From: Fasciola hepatica
Taxonomy: Eukaryota > Platyhelminthes > Trematoda > Plagiorchiida > Fasciolidae
NCBI GenBank assembly: GCA_948099385.1
Contig: CANUEZ040000047.1
Location: 29,344,501-29,408,500, forward strand
Reading direction: 5' to 3'
Length of the DNA: 64,000 bases
The position numbers were made by a program, and so were the translations under genes. The notes beneath the pieces were generated by a model. The model was not told the origin of the DNA and ran no database searches. It saw nothing but the letters and a program-made list of their open reading frames with translations. Below are positions 1 through 49,571 of the stretch, in pieces. Position 1 is the stretch's first letter. Every line of letters starts with the position of its first letter.

Positions 1-127
1 CAAGCTGCATCATGAATCATATTATAAACAAATCTAATCTGCCACTACTCAATTGCAAATAGTAAGCAAGCTGTGTAGGTTGTTCATAACGGAATGTGTT
101 CGTTGTACTTAGGCCCGTACAGAGAAG

Positions 128-149
128 TGATCGATCATAGGAGTCGATC
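128..149 (+). other. Conserved palindrome and inverted repeat GATCGA...TCGATC
   Basis: TGATCGATCA (128-137) is a perfect 10-bp palindrome. GATCGA (129-134) and TCGATC (144-149) form a 6-bp inverted repeat with a 9-nt spacer. It recurs at 403-bp spacing in nearly all copies. Altered versions occur at about 3,359 and 4,568 (GACC), 23,920 (GGATC), and 30,773 and 31,579 (GGATCT). It lies about 100 bp upstream of the inferred Pol III start and could be a protein-binding site; no known factor is assigned. Confidence 0.45.
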
Positions 150-319
150 GGTGTGTGGGAAGCTTGTTGTTACCGTTCAAAAGCCAGTTATGGAAGGGTG
201 CTATATGATGTAGTGTAGATGTTGAACAAACCGTTGAGAGCCATCGCGGATAACCTTGCGGTTAAGGTGTTCGATTCACAGTCGTTGAGCCTGTGTTCGA
301 GTCGCCGTGGGGGCTCGGT

Positions 320-380
320 GCATGTGCACTGCTCATCATTCCCAACAAGGATGAAACAGCTGCACAGTGCATATCCATGC
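320..380 (+). ncRNA. Hammerhead-like fold, copy 1, cleavage triplet lost
   Basis: Same fold as in copy 2: outer stem I 320-324 with 376-380, inner stem I 325-331 with 365-371, core 332-338, stem II 339-342 with 349-352, GAAA 353-356. Here base 363 is C, so the A15.1-U16.1 pair and the required U of the NUH triplet are both gone (GCA instead of GTA). This is a private substitution among the copies I read. Confidence 0.7.
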
Positions 381-403
381 TTTTCAATGGTCAGTTGAGC
401 GTT

Positions 404-443
404 CAAGCTGCATCATGAATCATATTATAAATAAATCTAATCT
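404..443 (+). other. AT-rich segment at arbitrary monomer start
   Basis: ATCATATTATATACAAATC and neighbours form the most AT-rich part of the unit and a hotspot of small variants (TATATAC, TATAAAC, TATAAATA, CATATAC, TATATGC) that are useful for telling copies apart. Nothing coding or structured is seen here. Confidence 0.6.
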
Positions 444-604
444 GCCACTACTCAATTGCAAATAGTAAGCAAGCTGTGTAGGTTGTTCATAACGGAATGT
501 GTTCGTTGTACTTAGGCCCGTACAGAGAAGTGATCGATCATAGGAGTCGATCGGTGTGTGGGAAGCTTGTTGTTACCGTTCAAAATCCAGTGATGGAAGG
601 GTGC

Positions 605-609
605 TATAT
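605..609 (+). promoter_or_regulatory. TATA-like element upstream of tRNA-like promoter
   Basis: A TATAT core within CTATATGATG lies about 45 bp before the A box and about 30 bp before the inferred start. Some Pol III genes use such an upstream TATA element in addition to internal boxes. It is variable between copies: TGTAT in several left-hand copies (for example near 3,830, 5,039, 7,860, 8,263, 10,278 and 11,093), TATTT near 11,488, 12,294 and 13,503, and TATTAG near 27,205 and 28,817. The short motif and its variability keep this tentative. Confidence 0.3.
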
Positions 610-653
610 GATGTAGTGTAGATGTTGAACAAACCGTTGAGAGCCATCGCGGA

Positions 654-664
654 TAGCGTAGCGG
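654..664 (+). promoter_or_regulatory. Pol III A box (consensus-matching allele)
   Basis: TAGCGTAGCGG fits the eukaryotic tRNA A-box pattern TRGCNNAGYGG at every fixed position and is followed by TTAAGG, as in many tRNA D arms. About twenty copies carry this allele; the others have TAGCCTTGCGG, TAACCTTGCGG or TAGCTTTGCGG. It is the internal promoter element bound by TFIIIC. Spacing to the B box is 33 nt, within the tRNA range. Confidence 0.75.
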
Positions 665-697
665 TTAAGGTGTTCGATTCACAGTCGTTGAGCCTGT

Positions 698-706
698 GTT
701 CGAGTC
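698..706 (+). promoter_or_regulatory. Pol III B box (C allele)
   Basis: GTTCGAGTC matches the B-box core GTTCGANTC exactly; the flanking bases T and G differ from the full GGTTCGANTCC. In many copies the last base is G instead (GTTCGAGTG), a C/G dimorphism at relative position 303 with strong regional bias. With the A box it forms a type-2 Pol III promoter of tRNA origin. Confidence 0.75.
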
Positions 707-722
707 GCCGTGGGGGCTCGGT

Positions 723-783
723 GCATGTGCACTGCTCATCATTCCCAACAAGGATGAAACAGCTGTACAGTGCATATCCATGC
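723..783 (+). ncRNA. Hammerhead ribozyme-like fold, type I, core G5C and G8C (copy 2)
   Basis: Stem I is GCATG (723-727) with CATGC (779-783) plus TGCACTG (728-734) with CAGTGCA (768-774), leaving a TATC bulge (775-778). The core CTCATCA (735-741) aligns with hammerhead CTGATGA but has C at the G5 and G8 positions. Stem II is TTCC (742-745) against GGAT (752-755) around loop CAACAA, with a T-T mismatch at the base pair next to the core. GAAA (756-759) follows. Stem III is ACA (759-761) with TGT (764-766) around loop GC, then A17 (767), giving a GTA triplet with cleavage expected at 767/768. Topology and the 6-nt loop II match the schistosome satellite hammerhead. Loss of both guanines predicts little or no activity. 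Confidence 0.75.
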
Positions 784-787
784 TTTT
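784..787 (+). terminator. T4 Pol III terminator candidate
   Basis: TTTT follows directly after CATGC, the last strand of hammerhead stem I, and is the only T4 between the A box and this point in the monomer. The same run is present at 381-384 and at 403-bp steps. It is interrupted in eight copies (see findings). Four Ts are the minimum for Pol III in vertebrates and often leaky. Confidence 0.5.
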
Positions 788-3700
788 CAATGGTCAGTTG
801 AGCGTTCAAGCTGCATCATGAATCATATTATATACAAATCTAATCTGCTACTACTCAATTGCAAATAGTAAGCAAGCTGTGTAGGTTGTTCATAACGGAA
901 TGTGTTCGTTGTACTTAGGCCCGTACAGAGAAGTGATCGATCATAGGAGTCGATCGGTGTGTGGGAAGCTTGTTGTTACCGTTCAAAAGCCAGTTATGGA
1001 AGGGTGCTATATGATGTAGTGTAGATGTTGAACAAACCGTTGAGAGCCATCGCGGATAACCTTGCGGTTAAGGTGTTCGATTCACAGTCGTTGAGCCTGT
1101 GTTCGAGTGGCCGTGGGGGCTCGGTGCATGTGCACTGCTCATCATTCCCAACAAGGATGAAATAGCTGTACAGTGCATATCCATGCTTTTCAATGGTCAG
1201 TTGAGCGTTCAAGCTGCATCATGAATCATATTATAAATAAATCTAATCTGCCACTACTCAATTGCAAATAGTAAGCAAGCTGTGTAGGTTGTTCATAACG
1301 GAATGTGTTCGTTGTACTTAGGCCCGTACAGAGAAGTGATCGATCATAGGAGTCGATCGGTGTGTGGGAAGCTTGTTGTTACCGTTCAAAAGCCAGTTAT
1401 GGAAGGGTGCTATATGATGTAGTGTAGATGTTGAACAAACCGTTGAGAGCCATCGCGGATAGCGTAGCGGTTAAGGTGTTCGATTCACAGTCGTTGAGCC
1501 TGTGTTCGAGTGGCCGTGGGGGCTCGGTGCATGTGCACTGCTCATCATTCCCAACAAGAATGAAACAGCTGTACAGTGCATATCCATGCTTTTCAATGGT
1601 CAGTTGAGCGTTCAAGCTGCATCATGAATCATATTATATACAAATCTAATCTGCCACTACTCAATTGCAAATAGTAAGCAAGCTGTGTAGGTTGTTCATA
1701 ACGGAATGTGTTCGTTGTACTTAGGCCCGTACAGAGAAGTGATCGATCATAGGAGTCGATCGGTGTGTGGGAAGCTTGTTGTTACCGTTCAAAAGCCAGT
1801 TATGGAAGGGTGCTATATGATGTAGTGTAGATGTTGAACAAACCGTTGAGAGCCATCGCGGATAACCTTGCGGTTAAGGTGTTCGATTCACAGTCGTTGA
1901 GCCTGTGTTCGAGTCGCCGTGGGGGCTCGGTGCATGTGCACTGCTCATCATTCCCAACAAGGATGAAATAGCTGTACAGTGCATATCCATGCTTTTCAAT
2001 GGTCAGTTGAGCGTTCAAGCTGCATCATGAATCATATTATAAATAAATCTAATCTGCCACTACTCAATTGCAAATAGTAAGCAAGCTGTGTAGGTTGTTC
2101 ATAACGGAATGTGTTCGTTGTACTTAGGCCCGTACAGAGAAGTGATCGATCATAGGAGTCGATCGGTGTGTGAGAAGCTTGTTGTTACCGTTCAAAAGCC
2201 AGTTATGGAAGGGTGCTATATGATGTAGTGTAGATGTTGAACAAACCGTTGAGAGCCATCGCGGATAGCGTAGCGGTTAAGGTGTTCGATTCACAGTCGT
2301 TGAGCCTGTGTTCGAGTCGCCGTGGGGGCTCGGTGCATGTGCACTGCTCATCATTCCCAACAAGGATTAAACAGCTGTACAGTGCATATCCATGCTTTTC
2401 AATGGTCAGTTGAGCGTTCAAGCTGCATCATGAATCATATTATATACAAATCTAATCTGCTACTACTCAATTGCAAATAGTAAGCAAGCTGCTTAGGTTG
2501 TTCATAACGGAATGTGTTCGTTGTACTTAGGCCCGTACAGAGAAGTGATCGATCATAGGAGTCGATCGGTGTGTGGGAAGCTTGTTGTTACCGTTCAAAA
2601 TCCAGTTATGGAAGGGTGCTATATGATGTAGTGTAGATGTTGAACAAACCGTTGAGAGCCATCGCGGATAGCCTTGCGGTTAAGGTGTTCGATTCACAGT
2701 CGTTGAGCCTGTGTTCGAGTGGCCGTGGGGGCTCGGTGCATGTGCACTGCTCATCATTCCCAACAAGGATGATATAGCTGTACAGTGCATATCCATGCTG
2801 TTCAATGGTCAGTTGAGCGTTCAAGCTGCATCATGAATCATATTATATACAAATCCAATCTGCCACTACTCAATTGCAAATAGTAAGCAAGCTGTGTAGG
2901 TTGTTTATAAGGGAATGTGTTCGTTGTACTTAGGCCCGTACAGAGAAGTGATCGATCATAGGAGTCGATCGGTGTGTGGGAAGCTTGTTGTTACCGTTCA
3001 AAATCCAGTTATGGAAGGGTGCTATATGATGTAGTGTAGATGTTGAACAAACCGTTGAGAGCCATCGCGGATAACCTTGCGGTTAAGGTGTTCGATTCAC
3101 AGTCGTTGAGCCTGTGTTCGAGTGGCCGTGGGGGCTCGGTGCATGTGCACTGCTCATCATTCCCAACAAGGATGAAACAGCTGTACAGTGCATATCCATG
3201 CTTTTCAATGGTCAGTTGAGCGTTCAAGCTGCATCATGAATCATATTATAAACAAATCTAATCTGCCACTACTCAATTGCAAATAGTAAGCAAGCTGTGT
3301 AGGTTGTTCATAACGGAATGTGTTCGTTGTACTTAGGCCCGTACAGAGAAGTGATCGACCATAGGAGTCGATCGGTGTGTGGGAAGCTTGTTGTTACAGT
3401 TCAAAAGCCAGTTATGGAAGGGTGCTATATGATGTAGTGTAGATGTTGAACAAACCGTTGAGAGCCATCGCGGATAGCGTAGCGGTTAAGGTGTTCGATT
3501 CACAGTCGTTGAGCCTGTGTTCGAGTGGCCGTGGGGGCTCGGTGCATGTGCACTGCTCATCATTCCCAACAAGAATGAAACAGCTGTACAGTGCATATCC
3601 ATGCTTTTCAATGGTCAGTTGAGCGTTCAAGCTGCATCATGAATCATATTATATACAAATCTAATATGCTACTACTCAATTGCAAATAGTAAGCAAGCTG

Positions 3701-6700
3701 TGTAGGTTGTTCATAACGGAATGTGTTCGTTGTACTTAGGCCCGTACAGAGAAGTGATCGATCATAGGAGTCGATCGGTGTGTGAGAAGCTTGTTGTTAC
3801 AGTTCAAAAGCCAGTTATGGAAGGGTGCTGTATGATGTAGTGTAGATGTTGAACAAACCGTTGAGAGCCATCGCGGATAGCCTTGCGGTTAAGGTGTTCG
3901 ATTCACAGTCGTTGAGCCTGTGTTCGAGTGGCCGTGGGGGCTCGGTGCATGTGCACTGCTCATCATTCCCAACAAGAATGAAACAGCTGTACAGTGCATA
4001 TCCATGCTTTTCAATGGTCAGTTGAGCGTTCAAGCTGCATCATGAATCATATTATATACAAATCTAATCTGCTACTACTCAATTGCAAATAGTAAGCAAG
4101 CTGTGTAGGTTGTTCATAAGGGAATGTGTTCGTTGTACTTAGGCCCGTACAGAGAAGTGATCGATCATAGGAGTCGATCGGTGTGTGGGAAGCTTGTTGT
4201 TACCGTTCAAAATCCAGTGATGGAAGGGTGCTATATGATGTAGTGTAGATGTTGAACAAACCGTTGAGAGCCATCGCGGATAACCTTGCGGTTAAGGTGT
4301 TCGATTCACAGTCGTTGAGCCTGTGTTCGAGTCGCCGTGGGGGCTCGGTGCATGTGCACTGCTCATCATTCCCAACAAGGATGAAACAGCTGTACAGTGC
4401 ATATCCATGCTTTTCAATGGTCAGTTGAGCGTTCAAGCTGCATCATGAATCATATTATAAACAAATCTAATCTGCCACTACTCAATTGCAAATAGTAAGC
4501 AAGCTGTGTAGGTTGTTCATAACGGAATGTGTTCGTTGTACTTAGGCCCGTACAGAGAAGTGATCGACCATAGGAGTCGATCGGTGTGTGGGAAGCTTGT
4601 TGTTACCGTTCAAAAGCCAGTTATGGAAGGGTGCTATATGATGTAGTGTAGATGTTGAACAAACCGTTGAGAGCCATCGCGGATAACCTTGCGGTTAAGG
4701 TGTTCGATTCACAGTCGTTGAGCCTGTGTTCGAGTGGCCGTGGGGGCTCGGTGCATGTGCACTGCTCATCATTCCCAACAAGAATGAAACAGCTGTACAG
4801 TGCATATCCATGCTTTTCAATGGTCAGTTGAGCGTTCAAGCTGCATCATGAATCATATTATATACAAATCTAATATGCTACTACTCAATTGCAAATAGTA
4901 AGCAAGCTGTGTAGGTTGTTCATAACGGAATGTGTTCGTTGTACTTAGGCCCGTACAGAGAAGTGATCGATCATAGGAGTCGATCGGTGTGTGGGAAGCT
5001 TGTTGTTACCGTTCAAAAGCCAGTTATGGAAGGGTGCTGTATGATGTAGTGTAGATGTTGAACAAACCGTTGAGAGCCATCGCGGATAGCTTTGCGGTTA
5101 AGGTGTTCGATTCACAGTCGTTGAGCCTGTGTTCGAGTGGCCGTGGGGGCTCGGTGCATGTGCACTGCTCATCATTCCCAACAAGGATGAAACAGCTGTA
5201 CAGTGCATATCCATGCTTTTCAATGGTCAGTTGAGCGTTCAAGCTGCATCATGAATCATATTATATACAAATCTAATCTGCTACTACTCAATTGCAAATA
5301 GTAAGCAAGCTGTGTAGGTTGTTCATAACGGAATGTGTTCGTTGAACTTAGGCTCGTACAGATAAGTGATCGATCATAGGAGTCGATCGGTGTGTGAGAA
5401 GCTTGTTGTTACAGTTCAAAAGCCAGTTATGGAAGGGTGCTATATGATGTAGTGTAGATGTTGAACAAACCGTTGAGAGCCATCGCGGATAGCTTTGCGG
5501 TTAAGGTGTTCGATTCACAGTCGTTGAGCCTGTGTTCGAGTCGCCGTGGGGGCTCGGTGCATGTGCACTGCTCATCATTCCCAACAAGGATGAAACAGCT
5601 GTACAGTGCATATCCATGCTTTTCAATGGTCAGTTGAGCGTTCAAGCTGCATCATGAATCATATTATATACAAATCTAATATGCTACTACTCAATTGCAA
5701 ATAGTAAGCAAGCTGTGTAGGTTGTTCATAACGGAATGTGTTCGTTGTACTTAGGCCCGTACAGAGAAGTGATCGATCATAGGAGTCGATCGGTGTGTGG
5801 GAAGCTTGTTGTTACCGTTCAAAAGCCAGTTATGGAAGGGTGCTATATGATGTAGTGTAGATGTTGAACAAACCGTTGAGAGCCATCGCGGATAACCTTG
5901 CGGTTAAGGTGTTCGATTCACAGTCGTTGAGCCTGTGTTCGAGTCGCCGTGGGGGCTCGGTGCATGTGCACTGCTCATCATTCCCAACAAGGATGAAACA
6001 GCTGTACAGTGCATATCCATGCTTTTCAATGGTCAGTTGAGCGTTCAAGCTGCATCATGAATCATATTATATACAAATCTAATCTGCTACTACTCAATTG
6101 CAAATAGTAAGCAAGCTGTGTAGGTTGTTCATAAGGGAATGTGTTCGTTGTACTTAGTCCCGTACAGAGAAGTGATCGATCATAGGAGTCGATCGGTGTG
6201 TGGGAAGCTTGTTGTTACAGTTCAAAAGCCAGTTATGGAAGGGTGCTATATGATGTAGTGTAGATGTTGAACAAACCGTTGAGAGCCATCGCGGATAACC
6301 TTGCGGTTAAGATGTTCGATTCACAGTCGTTGAGCCTGTGTTCGAGTCGCCGTGGGGGCTCGGTGCATGTGCACTGCTCATCATTCCCAACAAGGATGAA
6401 ACAGCTGTACAATGCATATCCATGCTTTTCAATGGTCAGTTGAGCGTTCAAGCTGCATCATGAATCATTTTATATACAAATCTAATCTGCCACTACTCAA
6501 TTGCAAATAGTAAGCAAGCTGTGTAGGTTGTTCATAACGGAATGTGTTCGTTGTACTTAGGCCCGTACAGAGAAGTGATCGATCATAGGAGTCGATCGGT
6601 GTGTGGGAAGCTTGTTGTTAGCGTTCAAAAGCCAGTTATGGAAGGGTGCTATATGATGTAGTGTAGATGTTGAACAAACCGTTGAGAGCCATCGCGGATA

Positions 6701-47240: not shown

Positions 47241-49168
47241 CGGAATTTGTTCGTTGTACTTAGGGCCGTACAGAGAAGTGATCGATCATATCAGTGGATC
47301 TGTGTGTGGGAAGCTTGTTGTTACCGTTCAAAATCCAGTGATGGAAGGGTGCTATATGATGTAGTGTAGATGTTGAACAATCCGTTGAGAGCCATCGCGG
47401 ATAGCCTTGCGGTTAAGGTGTTCGATTCACAGTCGTTGAGCCTGTGTTCGAGTGGCCGTGGGTGCTCGGTGCATGTGCACTGCTCATCATTCCCAACAAG
47501 GATGAAACAGCTGTACAGTGCATATCCATGCTTTTCAATGGTCAGTTGAGCGTTCAAGCTGCATCATGAATCATATCATATACAAATCTAATCTGCTACT
47601 ACTCAATTGCAAATAGTAAGCAAGCTGTGTAGGTTGTTCATAAGGGAATGTGTTCGTTGTACTTAGACCCGTACAGAGAAGTGATCGATCATAGGAGTCG
47701 ATCGGTGTGTGGGAAGCTTGTTGTTAGCGTTCAAAATCCAGTGATGGAAGGGTGCTATATGATGTAGTGTAGATGTTGAACAAACCGTTGAGAGCGATCG
47801 CGGATAGCCTTGCGGTTAAGGTGTTCGATTCACAGTCGTTGAGCCTGTGTTCGAGTGGCCGTGGGGGCTCGATGCATGTGCACTGCTCATCATTCCCAAC
47901 AAGGATGAAACAGCTGTACAGTGCATATCCATGCTTTTCAATGGTCAGTTGAGCGTTCAAGCTGCATCATGAATCATATTATATACAAATCTAATCTGCT
48001 ACTACTCAATTGCAAATAGTAAGCAAGCTGTGTAGGTTGTTCATAAGGGAATGTGTTCGTTGTACTTAGGCCCGTACAGAGAAGTGATCGATCATAGGAG
48101 TCGATCGGTGTGTGGGAAGCTTGTTGTTAGCGTTCAAAATCCAGTGATGGAAGGGTGCTATATGATGTAGTGTAGATGTTGAACAAACCGTTGAGAGCCA
48201 TCGCGGATAGCTTTGCGGTTAAGGTGTTCGATTCACAGTCGTTGAGCCTGTGTTCGAGTGGCCGTGGGGGCTCGGTGCATGTGCACTGCTCATCATTCCC
48301 AACAAGGATGAAACAGCTGTACAGTGCATATCCATGCTTTTCAATGGTCAGTTGAGCGTTCAAGCTGCATCATGAATCATATTATATACAAATCTAATCT
48401 GCTACTACTCAATTGCAAATAGTAAGCAAGCTGTGTAGGATGTTCATAACGGAATTTGTTCGTTGTACTTAGGCCCGTACAGAGAAGTGATCGATCATAG
48501 GAGTCGATCGGTGTGTGGGAAGCTTGTTGTTACCGTTCAAAATCCAGTGATGGAAGGGTGCTATATGATGTAGTGTAGATGTTGAACAAACCGTTGAGAG
48601 CCATCGCGGATAGCCTTGCGGTTAAGGTGTTCGATTCACAGTCGTTGAGCCTGTGTTCGAGTGGCCGTGGGGGCTCGGTGCATGTGCACTGCTCATCATT
48701 CCCAACAAGGATGAAACAGCTGTACAGTGCATATCCATGCTTTTCAATGGTCAGTTGAGCGTTCAAGCTGCATCATGAATCATATTATATACAAATCTAA
48801 TCTGCTACTACTCAATTGCAAATAGTAAGCAAGCTGTGTAGGTTGTTCATAAGGGAATGTGTTCGTTGTACTTAGGCCCGTACAGAGACGTGATCGATCA
48901 TAGGAGTCGATCGGTGTGTGGGAAGCTTGTTGTTAGCGTTCAAAATCCAGTGATGGAAGGGTGCTATATGATGTAGTGTAGATGTTGAACAAACCGTTGA
49001 GAGCCATCGCGGATAGCCTTGCGGTTAAGGTGTTCGATTCACAGTCGTTGAGCCTGTGTTCGAGTGGCCGTGGGGGCTCGGTGCATGTGCACTGCTCATC
49101 ATTCCCAACAAGGATGAAACAGCTGTACAGTGCATATCCATGCTTTTCAATGGTCAGTTGAGCGTTCA

Positions 49169-49571
49169 AGCTGCATCATGAATCATATTATATACAAATC
49201 TAATCTGCCACTACTCAATTGCAAATAGTAAGCAAGCTGTGTAGGTTGTTCATAACGGAATGTGTTCGTTGTACTTAGGCCCGTACAGAGAAGTGATCGA
49301 TCATAGGAGTCGATCGGTGTGTGGGAAGCTTGTTGATACCGATAAAATCCGGTGATGGAAGGGTGCTATATGATGTAGTGTAGATGTTGAACAAACCGTT
49401 GAGAGCCATCGCGGATAGCCTTGCGGTTAAGGTGTTCGATTCACAGTCGTTGAGCCTGTGTTCGAGTGGCCGTGGGGGCTCGGTGCATGTGCACTGCTCA
49501 TCATTCCCAACAAGGATGAAACAGCTGTACAGTGCATATCCATGCTTTTCAATGGTCAGTTGAGCGTTCAA
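49169..49571 (+). repeat. 402-bp copy: only indel in the array
   Basis: The copy reads GATACCGATAAAATCCGG where others read GTTACCGTTCAAAATCCAG. One base is missing within about 49,341-49,346 and several substitutions cluster around it. All later copies are shifted by one base relative to the 403-bp lattice. The lesion lies between the palindrome and the TATA-like motif and leaves promoter and hammerhead unchanged. Confidence 0.85.

Follow-up and report, generated by a model that had tools for sequence, protein, structure and literature searches.

The analysed window, a stretch of 64,000 nucleotides, consists over its entire length (positions 1 to 64000, plus strand) of one tandem array, the satellite monomer being 403 bp long. 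Tandem Repeats Finder reported a period of 403 with 158.8 copies and 98% matches. In the interval count, the spacing between anchors was exactly 403 bp in 157 of the 158 intervals and 402 bp in the remaining one, the sole 402-bp monomer being that at 49167–49568. Inspection by eye of the region near the monomer start showed that two variants, TATAAATAAATC and TATATACAAATC, take turns through monomers 2 to 7 (positions 404–2820); monomer 1 starts with a third form, and monomer 8 carries the second variant again. This alternation may reflect a higher-order repeat of two units in that part of the array.

Each monomer contains a hammerhead-like element of 61 nt, located at 723–783 of the window and present again in all 158 complete monomers, from which it was excised by position (one reading, from the 402-bp monomer, is off by one base). 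The excised elements fall into 24 distinct readings, the commonest of which was found in 100 copies. A preliminary description, made from the letters of this stretch, had proposed a type I hammerhead ribozyme fold in every satellite monomer. Its letters, elements and positions at 723–783 were all reproduced when the coordinates were rechecked, and the statement that the element recurs in every monomer agrees with the copy counts (158.8 copies in the array, 158 complete monomers with the element). The order of a type I hammerhead, open at stem I (stem I – core – stem II – GAAA – stem III – NUH – stem I), is found at this locus.

The 5′ side of stem I (723–734, plus strand) consists of an outer block, GCATG, and an inner block, TGCACTG, which are perfectly complementary to 779–783 and 768–774, respectively. 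Stem I is thus formed by 5 bp (723–727/779–783) and 7 bp (728–734/768–774), and on its 3′ side (768–783; CAGTGCA, TATC, CATGC) the TATC segment at 775–778 is unpaired. The core, CTCATCA, is located at 735–741 and is followed by stem II (743–754), which has 3 bp (743–745/752–754) and a 6-nt loop, CAACAA (746–751). Beside this stem, positions 742 and 755 form a U.U mismatch at 10.1/11.1. The GAAA of the core (G12 A13 A14 A15.1) lies at 756–759, and stem III (759–766) reads ACA GC TGT, with pairs 759–761/764–766 and a GC loop, which makes it a perfect 8-nt palindrome. H17 is an A at 767, and the cut predicted from its position in the descriptor (see below) would fall at 767/768, were the core working.

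GAAA is present in 155 of the 158 copies (156 if the shifted reading is allowed for; the others are one TAAA and one GATA), and the cleavage triplet GTA ahead of the predicted cut in 156 (157 with the shifted reading; one copy has GCA), so both the GAAA and the NUH triplet of a type I hammerhead are found here. The palindrome of stem III, ACAGCTGT, occurs 135 times in the window, and ATAGCTGT 16 times. At 760 (monomer position 357), the stem III C is replaced by T in 16 copies and by A in 5, while at 753 (monomer position 350) the stem II G is replaced by A in 11 of 157 copies and by T in 2 of 157. As these variants demonstrate, stem II and stem III are not strictly kept. An A at 742, the first stem II position, was observed in 9 of 157 copies and could replace the U.U mismatch with a base pair.

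The core is the part of the element that departs from a hammerhead. It reads CUCAUCA where a type I hammerhead has CUGANGA, with C in place of G at positions 5 and 8. The tally over 158 copies gave CTCATCA in 155 (156 with the shifted reading), CTCGTCA in one and CTGATCA in one; allowing for the shifted reading, both core guanines are missing in 157 of the 158 copies, and the last copy lacks the second. The motif CTGANGA does not occur on either strand of the 64-kb window. Positions C3 and G8 of the hammerhead core pair, and they covary in several natural ribozymes (PMC3088659); in the element C3 is unchanged and its partner at position 8 is likewise a C, which leaves an uncompensated C.C where the pair would be. 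According to the same paper, changes at most core positions cause a drastic loss; RNAs with core mutations may retain modest activity, yet they are generally assumed to be non-functional, and a U10.1–U11.1 mismatch, like that of the element, allows more cleavage than any other mispair (PMC3088659). A working hammerhead with a consensus core was ruled out on these letters. The preliminary description had all elements, the core included, in correct hammerhead order, which holds for order and spacing, but the core itself departs from CUGANGA twice.

To describe the arrangement as a whole, a descriptor was composed of stem I, a core with at most two mismatches, stem II, GAAA, stem III and NUH, and was run on the consensus monomer. 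The element scored 21. Among 3000 dinucleotide shuffles of this monomer, 1 equalled that value and 85 gave any match; the descriptor was composed after the element had been seen, which makes the figure of 1/3000 somewhat generous. The descriptor found no match on the minus strand of this monomer. The hammerhead order and spacing are beyond chance. The preliminary description had named random shuffles with equal folds as a possible refutation; by the descriptor an equal arrangement hardly ever arises from shuffles, but in fold energy alone the element is unremarkable. For the 75-nt stretch carrying it, the z-score of fold stability was −1.75, with 8 of 200 shuffles equally stable, and for the whole monomer −1.50, with 7 of 100.

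The lowest-energy fold is a plain hairpin of −18.5 kcal/mol in which the core is buried, compared to −13.3 kcal/mol for the hammerhead-like form (calculated with a 2-bp stem III and a 4-nt loop, since the 2-nt loop is below the minimum of the program). The hammerhead-like form was worse by at least 2.0 kcal/mol in each of the 24 distinct readings, and in the predicted ensemble the pairing of core positions 5 to 9 stands at 0.84–0.99. The stem II variants behave differently in the two forms: G→A (11 copies) breaks the hammerhead pair while slightly stabilising the plain hairpin (−19.0 kcal/mol), and G→T (2 copies) also breaks the hammerhead pair. Secondary-structure energies ignore the tertiary contacts of hammerheads, and the folding results are therefore supporting evidence only.

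Searches with Rfam covariance models gave no family at its gathering score in the whole window and, in a two-unit stretch, no hammerhead up to an E-value of 10. When the 75 bases were searched, Hammerhead_HH9 (RF02275) aligned in the right register with 14.0 bits (E 0.28; cut-off 52), the alignment spanning stem I, the core, stem II and GAAA; it was the sole hammerhead entry listed, one lower-scoring overlapping match of the same clan being left out. A microRNA family outscored it on the same bases (16.2 bits, minus strand), and the snoRNA-like and microRNA-like entries of the minus strand were all far under their cut-offs. We treat the sub-threshold Hammerhead_HH9 alignment as suggestive and not as a match. 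The covariance-model check proposed in the preliminary description thus gave no score above the curated threshold, the best listed hammerhead reaching 14.0 of 52 bits. Since C replaces two near-invariant guanines of the core in nearly all copies, a working hammerhead is unsupported; the lack of any CTGANGA, the Rfam result and the predicted pairing of the core speak against the earlier reading in the same way.

Directly upstream of the element, at 653–711 (plus strand) and at the corresponding place of each monomer, lies a weak tRNA-like stretch, possibly the head of a SINE. It matched RF00005 with 13.5 bits (E 1.6; cut-off 29) in the right register in one copy, while a copy of the majority type (2650–2740) had no tRNA match and ARAGORN found 0 tRNAs in positions 1–4000 of the window. 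The tRNA-scoring copy has the form TAGCGTAGCGG, present in 20 of the 158 monomers. A count of 158 for a pol III A/B box pattern was dropped, as the consensus matches (monomer positions 211 and 269) do not coincide with the A and B boxes of the tRNA-like stretch.

The element was then compared with the hammerhead of Schistosoma mansoni, as printed in PMC7118274. Over the core, stem II with its loop and GAAA, 19 of 25 positions are identical, a value reached by none of 5000 shuffles (best shuffle 17), whereas the best match of the minus strand to the S. mansoni core was 15/25. Stem II with its loop is identical at 10 of 14 positions, which occurs at a frequency of ∼0.0002 at a fixed position in shuffles. 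Stem I shows no such likeness. The whole 5′ block agrees at 23 of 41 positions in the same register. For the 17-nt 3′ block of stem I, the best match to S. mansoni (11/17) lies elsewhere in the monomer.

The active type I hammerhead of the SINE-like element Sm-alpha (W36.2) resembles the element in its stem I, which is split into two blocks and contains an unpaired internal stretch (judged by eye), in GAAA and in a 6-nt loop II (CAAATA in Sm-alpha, CAACAA in the element). The two differ in the core (CTGATGA versus CTCATCA), in the letters of stem I and in the length of the monomer, which is 332–338 bp in Sm-alpha and 403 bp in the array. Sm-alpha is related to tRNA-Gln-derived repeats (PMC2770079), whereas the tRNA-like stretch of the array is weak and, as read, has no Gln anticodon. 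Ancestry of the Sm-alpha type is supported by the 19/25 identity, the two-block stem I, the 6-nt loop II and the right register of Hammerhead_HH9, and descent of the element from such a hammerhead is likely, as judged from these comparisons. In the preliminary description the satellite was said to descend from, or belong to, the Sm-alpha type; the core, stem II, stem I architecture and register agree with this, but the stem I letters do not. Similarity to a hammerhead satellite, the absence of which it had listed as evidence against the fold, is present (19/25; 0/5000 shuffles).

Hammerhead ancestry is also favoured by the palindromic stem III, which could pair between two monomers to give a dimeric hammerhead form. 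The short-stem-III hammerheads of newt and viroid RNAs are described as working as dimers with a lengthened helix III (PMC6155905), and palindromic stem III sequences are also mentioned in PMC3088659. Animal retrozymes (PMC7229834) and the cave-cricket hammerhead satellite (PMC2837043), like the array, are built from tandemly repeated units a few hundred bp in length, each of which has a type I hammerhead; they have been reported as self-cleaving or catalytic, whereas the array is known here from sequence alone. For Hammerhead_HH9, the register of the alignment is shared, yet its 14.0 bits fall short of the gathering score, which is 52. Exact-pattern scans for relatives, which covered viral contigs and bacterial and archaeal genome contigs (not animal genomes), gave 0 hits in either set.

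A satellite of the same length has been described in schistosomes. W27.2, a satellite family on the W chromosome of S. mansoni, has a monomer of 403 bp and combines the former W27 and W29; it is one of four families with a type I hammerhead-like sequence, the aligned examples of which deviate from CUGANGA and GAAA (PMC8490949). W27 and W29 are listed as female-specific (PMC3701142). In assembly V7, W27.2 comprises 101.3 copies on a 40.8-kb scaffold, compared to 158.8 copies over the 64 kb of the window, and its orthologs are shorter in the other species examined (PMC8490949). Were the array W27.2, it would thus have to belong to a different assembly or to a close relative. Both features used here to recognize W27.2, the 403-bp tandem monomer and the hammerhead-like sequence, are found in the array, and the satellite is very probably W27.2 of S. 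mansoni or a close schistosome relative. This link is drawn by length and content only. The hammerhead-like satellite has thus very probably been described already (PMC8490949). Six pieces of the monomer were searched for as letters in the text of papers and were found in 0 papers; a literature search, with figures and supplements outside its scope, retrieved no per-copy core tally for the satellite, and the word 'tRNA' occurs 0 times in the main text of PMC8490949.

That study also reported transcription of W elements and cleavage assays, and found the hammerhead motifs of W25.2, W27.2 and W36.2 nearly always fully preserved across the schistosome species compared (PMC8490949). In the assays candidates 1–3 were active; inactivity had been expected of candidate 4 (core CUGANAA) and of candidate 5 (a cut-site deletion), and all predictions were reported as confirmed; the candidates were variants of W25.2 and W36.2, not of W27.2.

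Three other readings of the element were weighed against that of a decayed ribozyme. It might be a working, though atypical, hammerhead that is able to cut with a CUCAUCA core, possibly in dimeric form only, the dimer being formed through the palindromic stem III, ACAGCTGT. The remaining elements are in place, U10.1–U11.1 is the best-tolerated mispair, some natural core variants are partly active (PMC3088659), dimeric action is known for the short stem III of newt and viroid (PMC6155905), the palindrome is found 135 times in the window and the W27.2 motif is preserved among schistosomes (PMC8490949). Nevertheless, two core guanines are replaced and the C3.C8 opposition is uncompensated, the predicted ensemble has the core paired, and candidate 4, with a single core change, was predicted to be inactive and confirmed as such (PMC8490949). 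We give this reading a slim chance, and a slimmer one to its strong form, in which a doubly substituted CUCAUCA core still cuts, for example as a stem III dimer, uniformly over a satellite of at least 64 kb.

The element could, on the other hand, be no more than a plain inverted repeat or hairpin whose likeness to a hammerhead is accidental, as would be consistent with its lowest-energy fold, its unremarkable stability (z −1.75), the lack of any Rfam hammerhead at the gathering score (or, on the dimer, up to E 10), the higher score of a minus-strand microRNA family on the same 75 bases (16.2 bits) and stem I letters unlike those of Sm-alpha. This is very improbable given the descriptor score, equalled by 1 of 3000 shuffles, the 19 of 25 positions shared with the core and stem II of the S. 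mansoni hammerhead (0/5000 shuffles) and the independent report of a hammerhead-like sequence in a 403-bp schistosome satellite (PMC8490949); on the first two of these grounds, a chance hairpin alone was rejected. Finally, the hairpin may have been reused, e.g. for protein binding or as a small-RNA precursor, and conserved for that role. The element diverges roughly half as much as the remaining monomer sequence, W elements are transcribed with their motifs preserved across species (PMC8490949), and the 11 copies with the G→A variant retain the plain hairpin (−19.0 kcal/mol). However, the low divergence is not exceptional, with 6% of 60-base windows lower, and homogenised arrays appear conserved without selection; we consider such a role hardly likely.

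The reading of a decayed ribozyme is the one we favour. With good probability, the 403-bp unit is a SINE-derived satellite, presumably W27.2 or a relative of it, whose Sm-alpha-type hammerhead has decayed and which is kept alike by homogenisation of the array and not by selection for cleavage. Its ancestor would have been a SINE-like element with an active hammerhead of the Sm-alpha type, which became the unit of a satellite. By analogy with the documented family, this element may have been transcribed, have cut itself once per unit and have spread as an RNA-derived element. The core would then have decayed, with two guanines changed to C in nearly all copies and the C3–G8 pair lost, and it is now predicted to form a plain hairpin by pairing with the GGAUGA side of stem II. 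The uniformity of the copies suggests that the decayed unit spread by unequal exchange or conversion, and that the likeness of the array is maintained by homogenisation rather than by selection for cleavage.

Divergence within the element is 0.76%, compared to 1.40% in the remainder of the monomer, although 6% of 60-base windows have even lower values; nothing points clearly to selection on the hammerhead fold. The preservation of the motifs across species does not sit easily with plain decay and speaks for some constraint or a recent common origin. Ribozyme function is unlikely, as judged from the core letters and the predicted folds, and the element is most likely the fossil of a documented ribozyme rather than a working one.

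Hammerhead satellites of schistosomes have already been documented, and the useful addition made here is the quantitative count per copy. The presence of 158 copies with an almost uniformly non-consensus core suggests that a satellite of this type can be amplified, reach great length and be uniform even where its ribozyme does not follow the consensus. An array of this kind, lacking the consensus, would separate the upkeep of the array from self-cleavage.
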